Source: Tessaracoccus aquimaris (GTDB lineage Bacteria > Actinomycetota > Actinomycetes > Propionibacteriales > Propionibacteriaceae). From it: a stretch of DNA of 64,000 nucleotides. The stretch covers positions 992,001 through 1,056,000 of the forward strand of contig NZ_CP019606.1 of NCBI RefSeq assembly GCF_001997345.1. Direction: 5' to 3'. Shown here one piece after another: positions 12,491 to 27,320 of the stretch (position 1 is the stretch's first letter; every line of letters begins with the position of its first letter). The position numbers and the translations under genes are program-made. Under the pieces are notes generated by a model. It was given only the letters and a program-made list of their open reading frames with translations, was not told the origin of the DNA and searched no databases.

Positions 12491-13690
12491 TCAGTCCTGT
12501 AGTCGGCCCAGGGTGATGGCCATCCTCAGCACGTAGGCCTCCCGGGCGTCGGCGGGGTTGTAGCCCGTCACGTCCTGGATCCGCTTCAAGCGGTAGCGCA
12601 CGGTGTTCGGGTGCACGAAGAGGGCACGCGCGGTCGCCTCCATGGAGGAGCCTGCGTCGAGGAATCCGACGCAGGTGTCGAGCAGTTCCTTGTTGGCGGC
12701 GAGAGCTGGGTAGATGTCACCCGCGAGCGTCCGCCTGGCGTGCCCGTCGCCCGCGAGCGCCCGCTCAGGGAGCAGGTCGATCGCGAGCATGGTCGGCGGG
12801 CCTTCGGGCCAGGCCTTCGCCGCCCGGTAGCCGGACGCGGCGGCCCGCGCCGAGCGTGGTGCGCCGGAGAGGCCGTCGACGGTGGGGCCGATCACGACGG
12901 GACCCGGCGCGAAGAACTCCTGCAGCTTCGCGACGCGTTCGCAGGTGTCGACCGGTTCCCCGACGCCGGCGCCGCCGACGATGCAGATCAACCGGTCGCC
13001 CTGGGGTGCGGCGAGGACGTCGAGCTTGAGCTTGGCCGCCGCCCTGCGCAGCCCGTCGAGTTGGCGGACGCCATCGCTGTTGGTGGTGTCGGGCGCCCCT
13101 CCGATGGCGACGACGACCTGGGACTCGGTGTTCCAGCCCAGCGTCGAGGCTCGGGAGATGACGGACTCGTCGGTCTCTGCGCGCACCACGGCGTCCACGA
13201 CGGTCGCCTCGATGCGGGAGTCCCAGGCGCCGCGGGCCTCGGCCGCTCTTGCGTAGATGGCGGCGGCCGCGAAGGCGACCTCGCGCGAGTAGTGCACGAT
13301 GCCCAGTTGGAGCGGCTGCCGGTCGCCGCGGGGGAGAAGGTGCTGGATCTGCTCCTCGACGACGTCGGTGGTGGTGCGCACCAGGTCGACCGTCTGCTGC
13401 AGCGTGATCCGCCGGGCCATCGCCCGGGGCGCAGCGTCAAAGATCGACTCGGGTTCGAAGTCCTCGCCGGAGAACCAGGTGACGAAGCCGTCGATGCCGG
13501 AGCGAGCGAGCACGCCGATCCAGGACCGCGACTCGGCGTCGAGTTGCCCGAACCACGCGTGCCTGGCGGTGAGGGCCGTGAGGGTCGCGGTGTTCATCTC
13601 CGACGAGGCCGCCGTCAGCCGCTTCACGAGGGCCGCCCTCGCCCTGGTCGAGGAGATCAGCGCTGGGGCCGTACCTGGGCGTGGTTCCAT
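12491..13690 (-). CDS. PucR/CdaR-type regulator, FasR-like activator of fatty-acid synthesis
   Basis: A 399-residue regulator with a long N-terminal sensory part, a central GGDEF-like PucR region (about 190-300), and a C-terminal PucR helix-turn-helix near residues 350-385 with the family phrase VHPNTVRYRLKRI. In Streptomyces coelicolor the similarly placed FasR activates the fabD-fabH-acpP-fabC/F operon. The position directly upstream of fabD and on the same strand supports the same role here. The ATG at 13690 is followed by a normal sequence; no strong ribosome site was noted. The symbol fasR is plausible but was left blank because orthology rests on architecture and context. Confidence 0.85.
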   Translation of the reverse strand: MEPRPGTAPALISSTRARAALVKRLTAASSEMNTATLTALTARHAWFGQLDAESRSWIGVLARSGIDGFVTWFSGEDFEPESIFDAAPRAMARRITLQQTVDLVRTTTDVVEEQIQHLLPRGDRQPLQLGIVHYSREVAFAAAAIYARAAEARGAWDSRIEATVVDAVVRAETDESVISRASTLGWNTESQVVVAIGGAPDTTNSDGVRQLDGLRRAAAKLKLDVLAAPQGDRLICIVGGAGVGEPVDTCERVAKLQEFFAPGPVVIGPTVDGLSGAPRSARAAASGYRAAKAWPEGPPTMLAIDLLPERALAGDGHARRTLAGDIYPALAANKELLDTCVGFLDAGSSMEATARALFVHPNTVRYRLKRIQDVTGYNPADAREAYVLRMAITLGRLQD

Positions 13691-13799: not shown

Positions 13800-14802
13800 G
13801 GCGCCGTTCGTCGAGCTTGTCGAGACGTCCGATTCCATGGCCGCCATCGGACGCCTCGGTCGAAACCTCGCGAGCTCGGGCAGGGACCCTGGGTGGGCTC
13901 TTGTGATCGCGCTTCGGTGGGTTTCGACGCAGCGGCGGGCGACTTCGTCGCCGCGGCTGGCTCAACCAGCGCGTCGTTCGTCGAGCTTGTCGAGACGTCC
14001 GATTCCATGGCCGCCATCGGACGCGTCGGTCGAAACCTCGCGAGCTCGGGCAGGGACCCTGGGTGGGCTCTTGTGATCGCGCTTCGGTGGGTTTCGACGC
14101 AGCGGCGGGCGACTTCGTCGCCGCGGCTGGCTCAACCAGCGGCGCTGATTGAGCCATGAAGGACGCGAAGCGGGCTTCATCGGTCGAAATCTAGTGACTT
14201 CGGGCAGGGACCCTGGGTGGGCTCCTTTGATCGCGCTTCGGTGGGTTTCGACGCAGCGGCGGGCGACTTCGTCGCCGCGGCTGGCTCAACCAGCGCGCCG
14301 TTCGTCGAGCTTGTCGAGACGTCCGATTCGATGTCCGCCCATCGGACGCGTCGGTCGAAACCTCGTGGCCTCGGGCAGGGACCCTGGGTGGGCTCTTGTG
14401 ATCGCGCTTCGGTGGGTCTCGACGCAGCGGCGGGCGACTGCGTCGCCGCGGCTGGCTCAACCAGCGGCGCTGATTGAGCCATGAAGGACGCGAAGCGGGC
14501 TTCATCGGTCGAAATCTCTCGTGACCTCGGGCAGGGACCCTGGGTGGGCTCTTGTGATCGCGCTTCAGTGGGTTTCGACGCAGCGGCGGGCGACTTCGTC
14601 GCCGCGGCTGGCTCAACCAGCGGCGCTGATTGAGCCATGAAGGACGCGAAGCGGGCTTCATCGGTCGAAATCTCGTGACTTCGGGCAGGGATCCTGGGTG
14701 GGCTTTGTGATCGCGCTTCATTGGGTTTCGACGCAGCGGCGGGCGACTGCGTCGCCGCGGCTGGCTCAACCAGCGCGTCGCCGCGGCTGGCTCAACCAAC
14801 GG
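13800..14802. repeat. Dispersed actinobacterial repeat array B (6 tandem units, two types)
   Basis: About 1 kb of tandem repeats fills the gap 13691-14886 between the FasR-like gene and cobF. Unit starts fall at 13807, 13977, 14146, 14301, 14471 and 14627 (spacing 170, 169, 155, 170, 156). Two unit types occur: type A opens with TTCGTCGAGCTTGTCGAGAC (13807, 13977, 14301) and type B with TGATTGAGCCATGAAGGACG (14146, 14471, 14627). All share a right half that runs from GGGT[TC]TCGACGCAGCGG to GGCTCAACCA, identical to the right half of array A at 4.9-5.4 kb. Type B left halves match the left half of array A. No gene was found here; long open frames across it are low-complexity artefacts. The remainder of the gap (13691-13800, 14803-14886) shows nothing recognisable. 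Confidence 0.9.
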
Positions 14803-14886
14803 GCCGACCCCAATCGCCCAACGCCGTTGCGCGGACCCGGCTGGCCGACCCGATCGCGCACGGCGTCGCCGCTAGGCTTACCTGCG

Positions 14887-15624
14887 ATGGCACGCAAGGT
14901 TTTTGTGATCGGAATGGGGCCCGGCGGGTTCGGGCAACTCACCCTCGACGCCGTCGACGCGATGAACAGCGTCGACGCGTTTCTGGTCGCCGACGCTGCC
15001 GACGACCAACCCGACCTTGTCTGGCGACGCAGCGAACTGATCCGACGCAACGTGCAGCGCGCGCACCGCATCATCACCGTCCTCGACCCCGCCCACATCC
15101 ACCCGGAGGACGGCGACCTCGACGCGGCGCGGCTTGCCACCTACTCGCAGATCATGAGCGGGCTGCCGGAGGAGGCGAGCGTCGGGTTCCTCGCCTGGGG
15201 CGACCCCGCCCTCTACGACTCGATCCTGCGCGTCGTCGACGCGCTGCGCGCCACGATGACCCTCGACGTCACCGTCATCCCAGGAGTCTCCGCTCCGCAG
15301 GTGCTGGCCGCCGCGCACGAGATCGCCCTGAACCGGGCCGGGCAGAGCGTCCACCTGACCACCGGCCGACGACTGCTCGGCGAGTACCGCCCCGACCTCG
15401 GCGACGTCGTCGTCCTCAACGACGCCGACTTCACCTGCCGGGCGCTCGTCGACGAGTTCCCCGACACCGAGTTGTACTGGGGCGCCTACCTCGGCACCGC
15501 CGACCAGGTCCTCGCGAACGGCCCGCTGCGCACCGTGGTCCCCGAACTCGAACGGCTGCGAGCAAAGCTGATCGATCATCACGGCTGGATCCAGGACATC
15601 TACCTGCTGCGCCCCGCCCCCTGA
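14887..15624 (+). CDS. cobF: Precorrin-6A synthase (deacetylating)
   Basis: A 245-residue tetrapyrrole methylase. The N-terminal motif FVIGMGPGGFGQLTLDAVDAM is the first glycine-rich loop of the family, and FLAWGDPALYDS, followed by VTVIPGVSAPQ, gives the second and third conserved blocks. The LTLDAVDAMN phrase and the overall length fit CobF, which methylates precorrin-5 at C1 and releases acetate in the aerobic cobalamin route. The ATG at 14887 follows repeat array B by about 85 bases. Other corrin genes are absent nearby except the SUMT at 17.6 kb. Assignment to CobF rather than another CbiF/CobM-type methylase is good but not certain. Confidence 0.82.
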   Translation: MARKVFVIGMGPGGFGQLTLDAVDAMNSVDAFLVADAADDQPDLVWRRSELIRRNVQRAHRIITVLDPAHIHPEDGDLDAARLATYSQIMSGLPEEASVGFLAWGDPALYDSILRVVDALRATMTLDVTVIPGVSAPQVLAAAHEIALNRAGQSVHLTTGRRLLGEYRPDLGDVVVLNDADFTCRALVDEFPDTELYWGAYLGTADQVLANGPLRTVVPELERLRAKLIDHHGWIQDIYLLRPAP

Positions 15625-25004: not shown

Positions 25005-27320
25005 CTAGCCGGCACACTGCTTGATGGCGACGCCGAACGTGTCGGCGGCACCGCACTCCATGGTGGCCAGTTCGGCGCGCGCCGGCGCGTCGGCCGGAAC
25101 CGACTGCGGCACGGTGTCGCGGAAGACGATCGACTTCTGGTCCGAGTCTCGGCGCACGATCGTGAAGTCCACCCTCATGGCGACGTCATCGCTGGTGCGC
25201 GTCCCCGTGAACCCGCACGCGACGCCGGAGGCACCCTCGCCGACGGCGACCGCGACGGTCTCCGACAGCACGACGTCGCTGTAGGTCTGGCGCTGCTCGG
25301 CCATCAGGTCGGTGCATGCGGTGTCCAGGTCGCCGTCGATGGAGGTCAGCGTCACGATCTGGATGCGGGTGTCGGTCTCGAGGTGCTTGAGCCTGACCAG
25401 GCGCCGGTCGTCCTGGACCTTCTCGTCCGCGTAGAGCTGCCAAGTCGGCAGGACCGTCACCTTCGCGTCCCCCAGATCGAGGATCAGCGGGGTCGGGGCC
25501 GTCGGTGTCGGCGTGGGCGTCACCGTGGGAGAGGGGGTCGCCGACGGCTGCGTCGAGGCGCTCGGCGTCGTCGAGGTGGCGGGAGAGGGGCCCTCAGACG
25601 CGGTGGTGCCGCCTGTGCCTGCGGTGGAGGTGGGGCCGGGGTTGGCCTGCTCGGCGCCGGGGCGCAACACGAAGAACAGCACGCCGACGATCAGGGCGAG
25701 CACGACCGCCAGCGCACCCAGCGCGTACCACCGTCGACGGGGGTCATCGTCGTCGGCAGGAGGCAGCGGGGAGCTGTGCCTGGCTCCGCTCCCAGGTGGC
25801 GTGGGCTCCGCTGCGGGCGGTTCGACGGCCTGCCGTGCAGGCGTCCAGGGCACCTCGACGGGCTCGGCGGCGTCCGTGGCGTCCGTAGGGCTGGCGGGCG
25901 GGCCCTTGGGCGTCTCCGGGCTCGCCATCGCCGTCGAGGTGGTCGTGCGGGGGCGCAGGTCCTCCCAGTCGAACAGGGTGGGGCTGGCCTGCGCGTCGGC
26001 CGCGACCGACTCGGATGGCGTCGGCTCTGGCGCGGGCTGCTCCGGAGTGAAGGTCACCTCGGGGGGCGTCAGGCCGCTCAGCGGCGCCTGCACCCGGGGG
26101 TCGGGCCGCGTCGACACGGGGAGCGCGGGTTCGTGGGCAGGCGGCGGAGGTGGGGTAACCGTCGAGGGCATCGGGCGGGCCGCGGGCGGTTCGGCCTTCG
26201 GCTCTGGCGCCGTGGGGAGGTCGTCGACGCTGAAGCGGGCGCCGCGTCCGGGTGACGGCGGCTCGGGGGAGTCGTCGAGGCGGGCGAAGCGCCCGGTGGG
26301 CTCGTCGCCGGCCACGCCCTCGTCGCGAGACTTGGCCTCGTCGCCGGGCTCCTGGTCGCCGGGCTCCTTCTCACGTCGGAACGGCGGTGCGAAGCGACCC
26401 GTGGGTTCGTCGGCAACGTCGTGGACGTCGTTGGTGCGTTCGGCGTCCAGGGTGCGTTCGGTGTCGGGGGTGTCAGCCGGGTCCCAGGCGAAGCGTCCGG
26501 TGGTTTCGGACCCCTCGACGGGCTCGGGGATCGGTTCGTCGTTCGTCGAGCTTGTCGAGACGTCCGTGCGCCGGGTGGTGGTTTGGGATCCCTGGACGGG
26601 TTCGGGGATCGGTTCGTCGTTCGTCGAGGTTGTCGAGACGTCCGTGCGCCGAGTGGTGGTGGTGTCGGACCCCTGGACGGGCTCGGGGATCGGTTCGTCG
26701 TTCGTCGAGCCTGTCGAGACGTCCGGGTGCCGAGTGGTGGTGGTTTCGGACCCCTGGACGGGCTCGGGGATCGGTGGTTGGTCGAGCTTGTCGAGACGTC
26801 CGAGCGTCGAGTGGTGGTGTCGGACCCTTCGACGGGTCGGCTCGTCCTCGGGGTCATCCTCCGGGTCGAACCGGGCGAAGCGGCCGGTGGGCTCGTCGTC
26901 CGGATCGCTGAGCGCGAAGCGGCCGGTGGGCTCGTCGTCCGGGTCGCTGAGCGCGAAGCGCCCGGTCGGTTCGTCCTCAGCGTCGTCTTCATCGAACCGG
27001 GCGAAGCGTCCGGTCGGCTCATCCGGGACGGCGAACCGGCCACCGCGCGTCGGGGCCTCGTCCTGCTCGTCGTCGGGACCGTTGTCCTGGCGCTCGGCGA
27101 AGCGGCCGGCGGGTCGGGCAAAGCGACCGGCAGATGAGGAGGCGGGTTCGGGCTCATCGTCGGCGAAGCGTCCGGCGCGTCGCGACGGCGGCGCGTCGGG
27201 CTGATTGTCGGCGACGTAGCCGCGGCCGGTGGATCCCCGTCGACCGGCGAAGGGCGGCAACTCGGCGTTCGTGTCGCCGTCATCGGAGGGTGTGCCTCGG
27301 CGCCCGACGTTGTCGGCCAT
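25005..27320 (-). CDS. Large disordered single-span membrane protein with EPTGRFA repeats
   Basis: A 771-residue protein of unrecognised family. Residues 1-530 are acidic, proline-rich and predicted disordered. They include many GRFA/EPTGRFA motifs (about residues 40-160 and again near 310-345) and four 26-27-residue repeats (about 165-270) containing DEPIPEPVQGS and DVST.STN phrases. One membrane span follows near residues 532-555, then a Ser/Thr/Pro linker. The C-terminal domain (about 630-771) has cysteines and a beta-rich pattern and should lie outside the cell. The ATG at 27320 has a strong AGGAGGTGG. The protein resembles the many actinobacterial membrane proteins with a cytosolic disordered region, but no function can be assigned. 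Its stop is three bases from the convergent pfk stop. Confidence 0.8.
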   Translation of the reverse strand: MADNVGRRGTPSDDGDTNAELPPFAGRRGSTGRGYVADNQPDAPPSRRAGRFADDEPEPASSSAGRFARPAGRFAERQDNGPDDEQDEAPTRGGRFAVPDEPTGRFARFDEDDAEDEPTGRFALSDPDDEPTGRFALSDPDDEPTGRFARFDPEDDPEDEPTRRRVRHHHSTLGRLDKLDQPPIPEPVQGSETTTTRHPDVSTGSTNDEPIPEPVQGSDTTTTRRTDVSTTSTNDEPIPEPVQGSQTTTRRTDVSTSSTNDEPIPEPVEGSETTGRFAWDPADTPDTERTLDAERTNDVHDVADEPTGRFAPPFRREKEPGDQEPGDEAKSRDEGVAGDEPTGRFARLDDSPEPPSPGRGARFSVDDLPTAPEPKAEPPAARPMPSTVTPPPPPAHEPALPVSTRPDPRVQAPLSGLTPPEVTFTPEQPAPEPTPSESVAADAQASPTLFDWEDLRPRTTTSTAMASPETPKGPPASPTDATDAAEPVEVPWTPARQAVEPPAAEPTPPGSGARHSSPLPPADDDDPRRRWYALGALAVVLALIVGVLFFVLRPGAEQANPGPTSTAGTGGTTASEGPSPATSTTPSASTQPSATPSPTVTPTPTPTAPTPLILDLGDAKVTVLPTWQLYADEKVQDDRRLVRLKHLETDTRIQIVTLTSIDGDLDTACTDLMAEQRQTYSDVVLSETVAVAVGEGASGVACGFTGTRTSDDVAMRVDFTIVRRDSDQKSIVFRDTVPQSVPADAPARAELATMECGAADTFGVAIKQCAG
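26508..26830. repeat. Dispersed repeat family lying inside a coding sequence
   Basis: Four copies of a repeat containing TTCGTCGAGCTTGTCGAGAC, with TCGGTTCG/TCGGTGG landmarks at 26531, 26609, 26690 and 26771 (spacing 78, 81, 81; all multiples of three). The first 20 bases equal the start of the type A units of array B at 13.8 kb. Here they are translated on the minus strand into the 26-27-residue repeats of the membrane protein described above. Confidence 0.85.

Follow-up and report, generated by a model that had tools for sequence, protein, structure and literature searches.

A REP/BIME-like repeat array within the coding sequence of a hypervariable protein tail in Tessaracoccus aquimaris, probably captured from a dispersed repeat family

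The DNA analysed in this work is a 64,000-nucleotide stretch of the Tessaracoccus aquimaris genome (NZ_CP019606.1, positions 992,001 to 1,056,000), referred to here as the window, and coordinates are those of the window unless given as genome positions. The gene under study (the host gene) occupies 25005..27320 on the minus strand, and comprises 771 codons; gene calls were made with our own dicodon model trained on the open reading frames (ORFs) of the window and are not an annotation. It is adjoined on one side by a 6-phosphofructokinase gene and on the other by a PPDK-type gene. The encoded protein consists of a low-complexity N-terminal tail (residues 1 to approximately 528), one transmembrane segment (approximately 532-552) and a C-terminal domain. 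The most hydrophobic 19-residue span begins at residue 534 with PRRRW just before it, so that by the positive-inside rule the tail ahead of the membrane segment is probably cytoplasmic, and its composition, the sole basis on this point, would indicate disorder; the original prediction, which placed the repeats described below on a cytoplasmic, disordered side of the protein, stands with those qualifications. Pfam searches returned no matches for the whole host protein or for two of its homologues (P0002 and the G020 protein). When solved structures were searched with a C-terminal-domain profile, the one match obtained (E = 0.11) was set aside as too weak.

The C-terminal domain was matched in 36 of 38 same-genus relatives. 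The 6-phosphofructokinase gene adjoins the orthologue in at least four relative loci (L035, L037, L038 and L044), and in T. bendigoensis and T. coleopterorum the orthologue lies behind phosphofructokinase too; among the phosphofructokinases of 27 named loci, the highest identity was found in T. coleopterorum (91%, best segment), followed by T. bendigoensis (84%). The tail is hypervariable. Among the best same-genus matches, some of which are broken or on short contigs, open frames of more than 500 residues were present only in the T. aquimaris genome itself and in G020, and the tail of the T. bendigoensis orthologue is nearly absent. Native DEPTGRFA repeats occur in the tail. In T. coleopterorum HDW20 (L053/L173) the orthologue is split over several frames and the match to phosphofructokinase extends over 1786 bp, against approximately 1353 bp expected, which suggests assembly indels or broken genes.

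Within the tail-coding region lies an inserted repeat block at 26499..26834 (minus strand), of 336 nt or 112 codons, encoding residues 163-274. The block is bounded by GAGCCGACC (DEPT) on one side and GGACGCTTC (GRF) on the other, native-type flanks that define a DEPT^GRFA site. Two kinds of element, A and B, alternate along it in inverted orientation, and a repeat search resolved it into four units of approximately 80 bp, each made of a 20-mer A and a B element. The A copies lie on the plus strand at 26542..26561 (exact; the minus strand reads DVSTSSTN), 26620..26639 (one mismatch; DVSTTSTN), 26701..26720 (one mismatch; DVSTGSTN) and 26778..26797 (one mismatch; GRLDKLDQ, in another frame). 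The B elements, also on the plus strand, comprise a family-typical CCCTCGAC form at 26512..26529, whose minus strand reads PEPVEG, three copies carrying a CTGGAC substitution (26590..26607, 26671..26688 and 26752..26769) and a partial element (26811..26836) at the 5' (coding) junction of the block. The fourth A copy is read in another frame because the linker to its B partner is 4 nt shorter, and the A-to-A spacings are accordingly 78, 81 and 77. The four copies and the peptides DEPIPEPVQGS and DVST.STN had been correctly predicted; the predicted spacings of 78, 81 and 81 were right for the first two and wrong for the third (26701 to 26778), and the claim that all are multiples of three applies to two of the three intervals, with the block as a whole amounting to 112 codons. 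An entry that left the frame unbroken had also been proposed: the net insert is in frame, and one copy inside it is frame-shifted.

Of the 112 residues of the block, 23 are threonine and 12 serine, a Thr/Ser-rich composition. As RNA (26497-26836) it folds better than 100 of 100 shuffled sequences (z -2.7). The trinucleotide ACC is present at both junctions, which fits either a tiny target duplication or microhomology and does not choose between them. A protein search with the block alone found only the host protein itself among 2470 candidates.

Homologues had been proposed as a comparison for the same repeats, and in four of them (P0002, P0003, P0004 and the G020 protein) the block is absent and the DEPTGRFA motif is kept; P0003 and the G020 protein are near-identical to each other. 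The closest homologue found, P0002, has an identity of 82% in the alignment (in BLASTP, 77% with 65% of the query covered) and reads DDEPTGRFAW where the host protein reads PEDEPT, the block, and then GRFAW. P0002 is a metagenome protein from a 3.3-kb contig, and the empty site is thus seen only at the protein level. From these comparisons, loss of the block in the relatives would be less parsimonious than its gain.

The 20-mer TTCGTCGAGCTTGTCGAGAC was found seven times in the window at up to three mismatches, against a mean of 0.04 over 100 shuffles, none of which reached seven. Four of these copies are those of the host gene, and the other three, all exact, are intergenic, at 13807, 13977 and 14301, in agreement with the intergenic occurrence at 13.8 kb originally noted. 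The latter three form part of a tandem array (13807..14320, plus strand) between ORFs 12491-13690(-) and 14698-15624(+). An intergenic tandem array with units of approximately 153-171 bp, containing a second repeat, GACGCAGCGGCGGGCGACTTCGTCGCCGCGGC, besides A, was also observed at 13867-14780. Genome-wide, and with the gene copies included, A was matched 147 times at up to two mismatches and B 264 times at up to one, where the reversed patterns used as controls gave 0 and 1 matches, respectively. The A consensus is CCGTTCGTCGAGCYTGTCGAGACGTCCGA (120 copies), and B elements, for example GGACCCCTCGACGGGCTCGGGGA, are near reverse complements of A. Paired, A and B form a single hairpin (-19.1 kcal/mol; z -3.0, equalled by 1 of 200 shuffles); A or B alone did not fold better than shuffles (z of -0.5 to +0.7 in five sequences). 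With short, high-copy, mostly intergenic elements in alternating orientations that can fold into larger hairpins, the family fits best the description of REP/BIME-like inverted pairs.

The family is wider than the insert, since A-type matches are abundant in other genomes. At up to one mismatch, the 38 same-genus relatives had none in 30 cases and 1-2 in six, with 83 in G021 and 46 in G033; in other genera, G054 had 95, G077 had 121 and G114 had 66. Among the copies listed, those of G021 and G033 show the variant TCGTTGAGCYTGTCGAAAC, and most of those from G114 show TGGTCGAGCYTGTCGAGAC. Literature searches on the core strings gave no title concerning this repeat among the matches listed, and a search combining Tessaracoccus with repeats gave none mentioning Tessaracoccus among the matches listed.

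At the DNA level, the matches of the block are arrays elsewhere in the genome. The 13.8 kb copies had been proposed as the nearest relatives, and this did not hold: the best relative among the matches listed is an array at genome positions 2,803,995-2,804,232, to which query positions 2-290 align at 73% identity. This array has a longer linker, GGTTCGTCGTTCGTCGAG, in common with three of the gene units, and no other copy of that linker was found in the fetched stretches at up to one mismatch. The ORF just downstream of this array encodes what we take to be an acetyltransferase-like protein. The CTGGAC form of B gave three exact-pattern matches in 361 kb of T. aquimaris DNA, all in the host gene and in three neighbouring units. 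Since this form is private to the host gene and common to neighbouring units, the units were probably duplicated inside the gene after insertion.

The opposite direction, in which the repeats were born as protein repeats in the host gene and the intergenic copies derived from them, would suit a tail that is repeat-prone, as its native DEPTGRFA repeats indicate. We give this reading almost no credence: the four compared homologues are without the segment, A-type matches are numerous in other genera (G054, G077 and G114), no copy of the CTGGAC form lies outside the host gene in the 361 kb examined, and a second, DoxX-like gene described below uses another frame. The direction from dispersed family to coding sequence is well supported, and entry of the family into the coding sequence, as first proposed, is very probable given four block-free homologues, arrays elsewhere and a net frame that is kept.

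All six reading frames of the block are open. Among 48 non-overlapping array windows of block length outside the two genes, 0-5 frames were open and none had all six, and shuffles of the gene's array had a mean of 3.4 open frames. A elements outside both genes (147) had a mean of 5.95 of six frames open, against 5.61 in shuffles; B elements were no more stop-free than shuffles (all six frames open in a fraction of 0.71 against 0.75). The frame-shifted copy within the block was tolerated because there is no stop in any of the six frames. In the gene's own frame the dicodon score of the block was +0.23, the best of the six, with the five others at -0.15 or less; a score of 0.23 was also reached in some frame by 2 of the 48 array windows outside both genes, and the 2.804 Mb array scored at most +0.11.

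These properties bear on the possibility that the open frame is accidental, with the region untranslated or translation starting downstream of the block. In its favour, stops are scarce in every frame of the A-type elements, and eight other called ORFs cross arrays only as 5' extensions with a negative coding score. Against it, the sequence upstream of the block has a coding score of +0.45 per codon in the frame of the gene, and the host protein aligns with its homologues from residue 1 on, and we regard an accidental frame here as quite improbable.

A second gene with coding repeats, outside the window, encodes a DoxX-like protein (L118 2051-3750, genome positions approximately 3,898,550-3,900,249), the C-terminal part of which matches DoxX (PF07681) at 28.5 bits with a cut-off of 23.6. 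It contains seven identical A-type copies, CCGTTCGCCGAGCCTGTCGAGGCGTCCG, read as PFAEPVEAS, with A spacings of 84, 60, 101, 84, 78 and 78. Their 26-mer core also occurs, unchanged, in a single intergenic array, at 3,322,201. At the spacing of 101, a G run near L118:2441 marks a change of reading frame, due either to an assembly error or to a real break. The motifs EPF, PVE[AT]S and ST[SG]ST were absent from all 14 readable relatives of this gene; 29 loci had been fetched, of which 15 were not recovered, and two of the 14 (L143 and L146) show no readable tail. The frame used in the DoxX-like gene differs from that of the host gene, and across the two genes the repeats are read in at least three frames.

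A spacings divisible by three made up 2 of 3 in the host gene and 36 of 107 outside the two genes (p 0.27, not significant); in the DoxX-like gene they made up 5 of 6 (p 0.023), and the two genes pooled gave 7 of 9 against 36 of 107 outside (Fisher p 0.013), all p values being optimistic because tandem units are not independent. This bias, together with the Thr/Ser-rich composition of the block, would also fit a block that has taken on a role in the tail, as spacer length or as modification sites, with selection on whole-unit changes. Frame keeping alone explains the spacing bias, however, and the almost missing tail of T. bendigoensis also argues against such a function, which we consider unlikely.

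A count of copies and their coding share, suggested at the outset as a check, was made over 54 stretches of the T. aquimaris genome plus the window (approximately 361 kb), the stretches having been chosen for holding matches, with 46 of the 264 B matches falling outside them. This census contained 158 A and 218 B matches (376 in total), of which 34 lie in called ORFs: 14 in the two genes, 18 in the 5' extensions of eight ORFs and 2 as singles in well-scored genes. The singles, in L106 and L111, are not in arrays and were set aside as likely chance matches. In L071, L075, L076, L083, L084, L092, L106 and L109, the ORF enters a stop-poor array at its 5' end only and scores negatively there, and these eight extensions are likely wrong starts and spurious. 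With 14 of the 34 ORF matches in two genes and the rest in extensions or singles, coding capture is rare but not unique within the DNA examined.

A RAYT as the mobiliser in this genome was rejected, since Y1_Tnp (PF01797) gave no match in it; 5 of 14 control genomes were matched, and there were no matches in the 38 same-genus relatives. Across all 146 genomes searched Y1_Tnp was matched in five; seven of the genomes hold 10 or more element matches, and one of these seven is among the five. Of G021, G033, G054, G077 and G114, only G077 has a Y1_Tnp match, and its nearest core copies lie approximately 2 kb from that match.

Comparable cases are known among intragenic REPs. Di Nocera et al. (2013, PMC3733652) describe the GTAG and CGTC families as short and mostly intergenic, often in inverted pairs and also within ORFs, and report clusters from Thauera and R. 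conorii that encode 43-82 residues; the word Actinobacteria is absent from the main text of that paper. Dispersed short repeats, inverted pairs and occurrence in ORFs are common to those families and to the one reported here, whereas the present block encodes 112 residues. Unlike GTAG REPs associated with RAYTs, the A consensus is missing the GTAG tag at the element end and the genome is without a RAYT (Y1_Tnp) match. CGTC REPs are characterized in the same source by a stem of 8-9 bp, a loop of 4-5 nt, a CGTC end and a CCA-like tail (PMC3733652); CGTC occurs in A, but the 8-9 bp stem was not found in single-element folds. Since the tests for GTAG tag, RAYT and CGTC stem failed, the family was not filed in either REP superfamily. 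Alternating orientation, arrays and high copy number are also shared with BIMEs that have RAYT transposases.

Rickettsia palindromic elements (RPEs) are described in a review as dispersed elements inserted in frame within protein-coding genes, approximately 150 bp long and encoding a conserved peptide (PMC10969869). Likened by description, they share with the present case, which has element-free homologues, the in-frame insertion in a coding gene; they differ in that the elements here are approximately 25 bp and that the two genes between them use at least three frames to read them. The enterobacterial repeat units RU-1 to RU-3 are described as intergenic repeats also read in proteins and proposed as a source of new proteins (Delihas 2007, PMC2759123). 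Likened by description only, they are MITE-like, 103-168 bp long and from another host group. Judged against intragenic REPs and RPEs as these sources present them, in-frame capture of a dispersed repeat is thus already known, and what appears to be new is this further example.

Taken together, the observations make it highly probable that a REP/BIME-like array was captured in a tail that is hypervariable and tolerant, with later amplification mainly in steps of whole codons. Elements of approximately 25 bp occupy many mostly intergenic sites in the genome as alternating inverted A and B copies, and under this reading a piece of an array, likest that at 2.804 Mb, would have been copied into the DEPTGRFA-repeat tail at DEPT^GRFA. 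One internal linker is off by 4 nt, which places the first part of the block in another frame, and units of approximately 80 bp would then have been duplicated within the gene. Survival of the insert would be explained by the hypervariability of the tail among orthologues, by a length divisible by three and by the lack of stops in every frame.

For annotation, the stop-poor arrays call for caution, since ORFs running into them are likely to carry spurious 5' extensions. In the host gene a dispersed repeat seems to have turned into a predicted protein segment of 112 residues, with homologues at hand that are free of the element, and the second gene in the same genome makes the idea of low-complexity tails as repeat sinks testable. 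We propose tentatively, holding it a little more doubtful than probable, that in REP-rich actinobacteria intergenic inverted-pair arrays may be a recurrent raw material for disordered tails, entering in whatever frame is open, being amplified unit by unit with the frame under selection, and giving rise to lineage-specific protein repeats. If this is true, the two genes found here, which use different frames, would represent two independent births.
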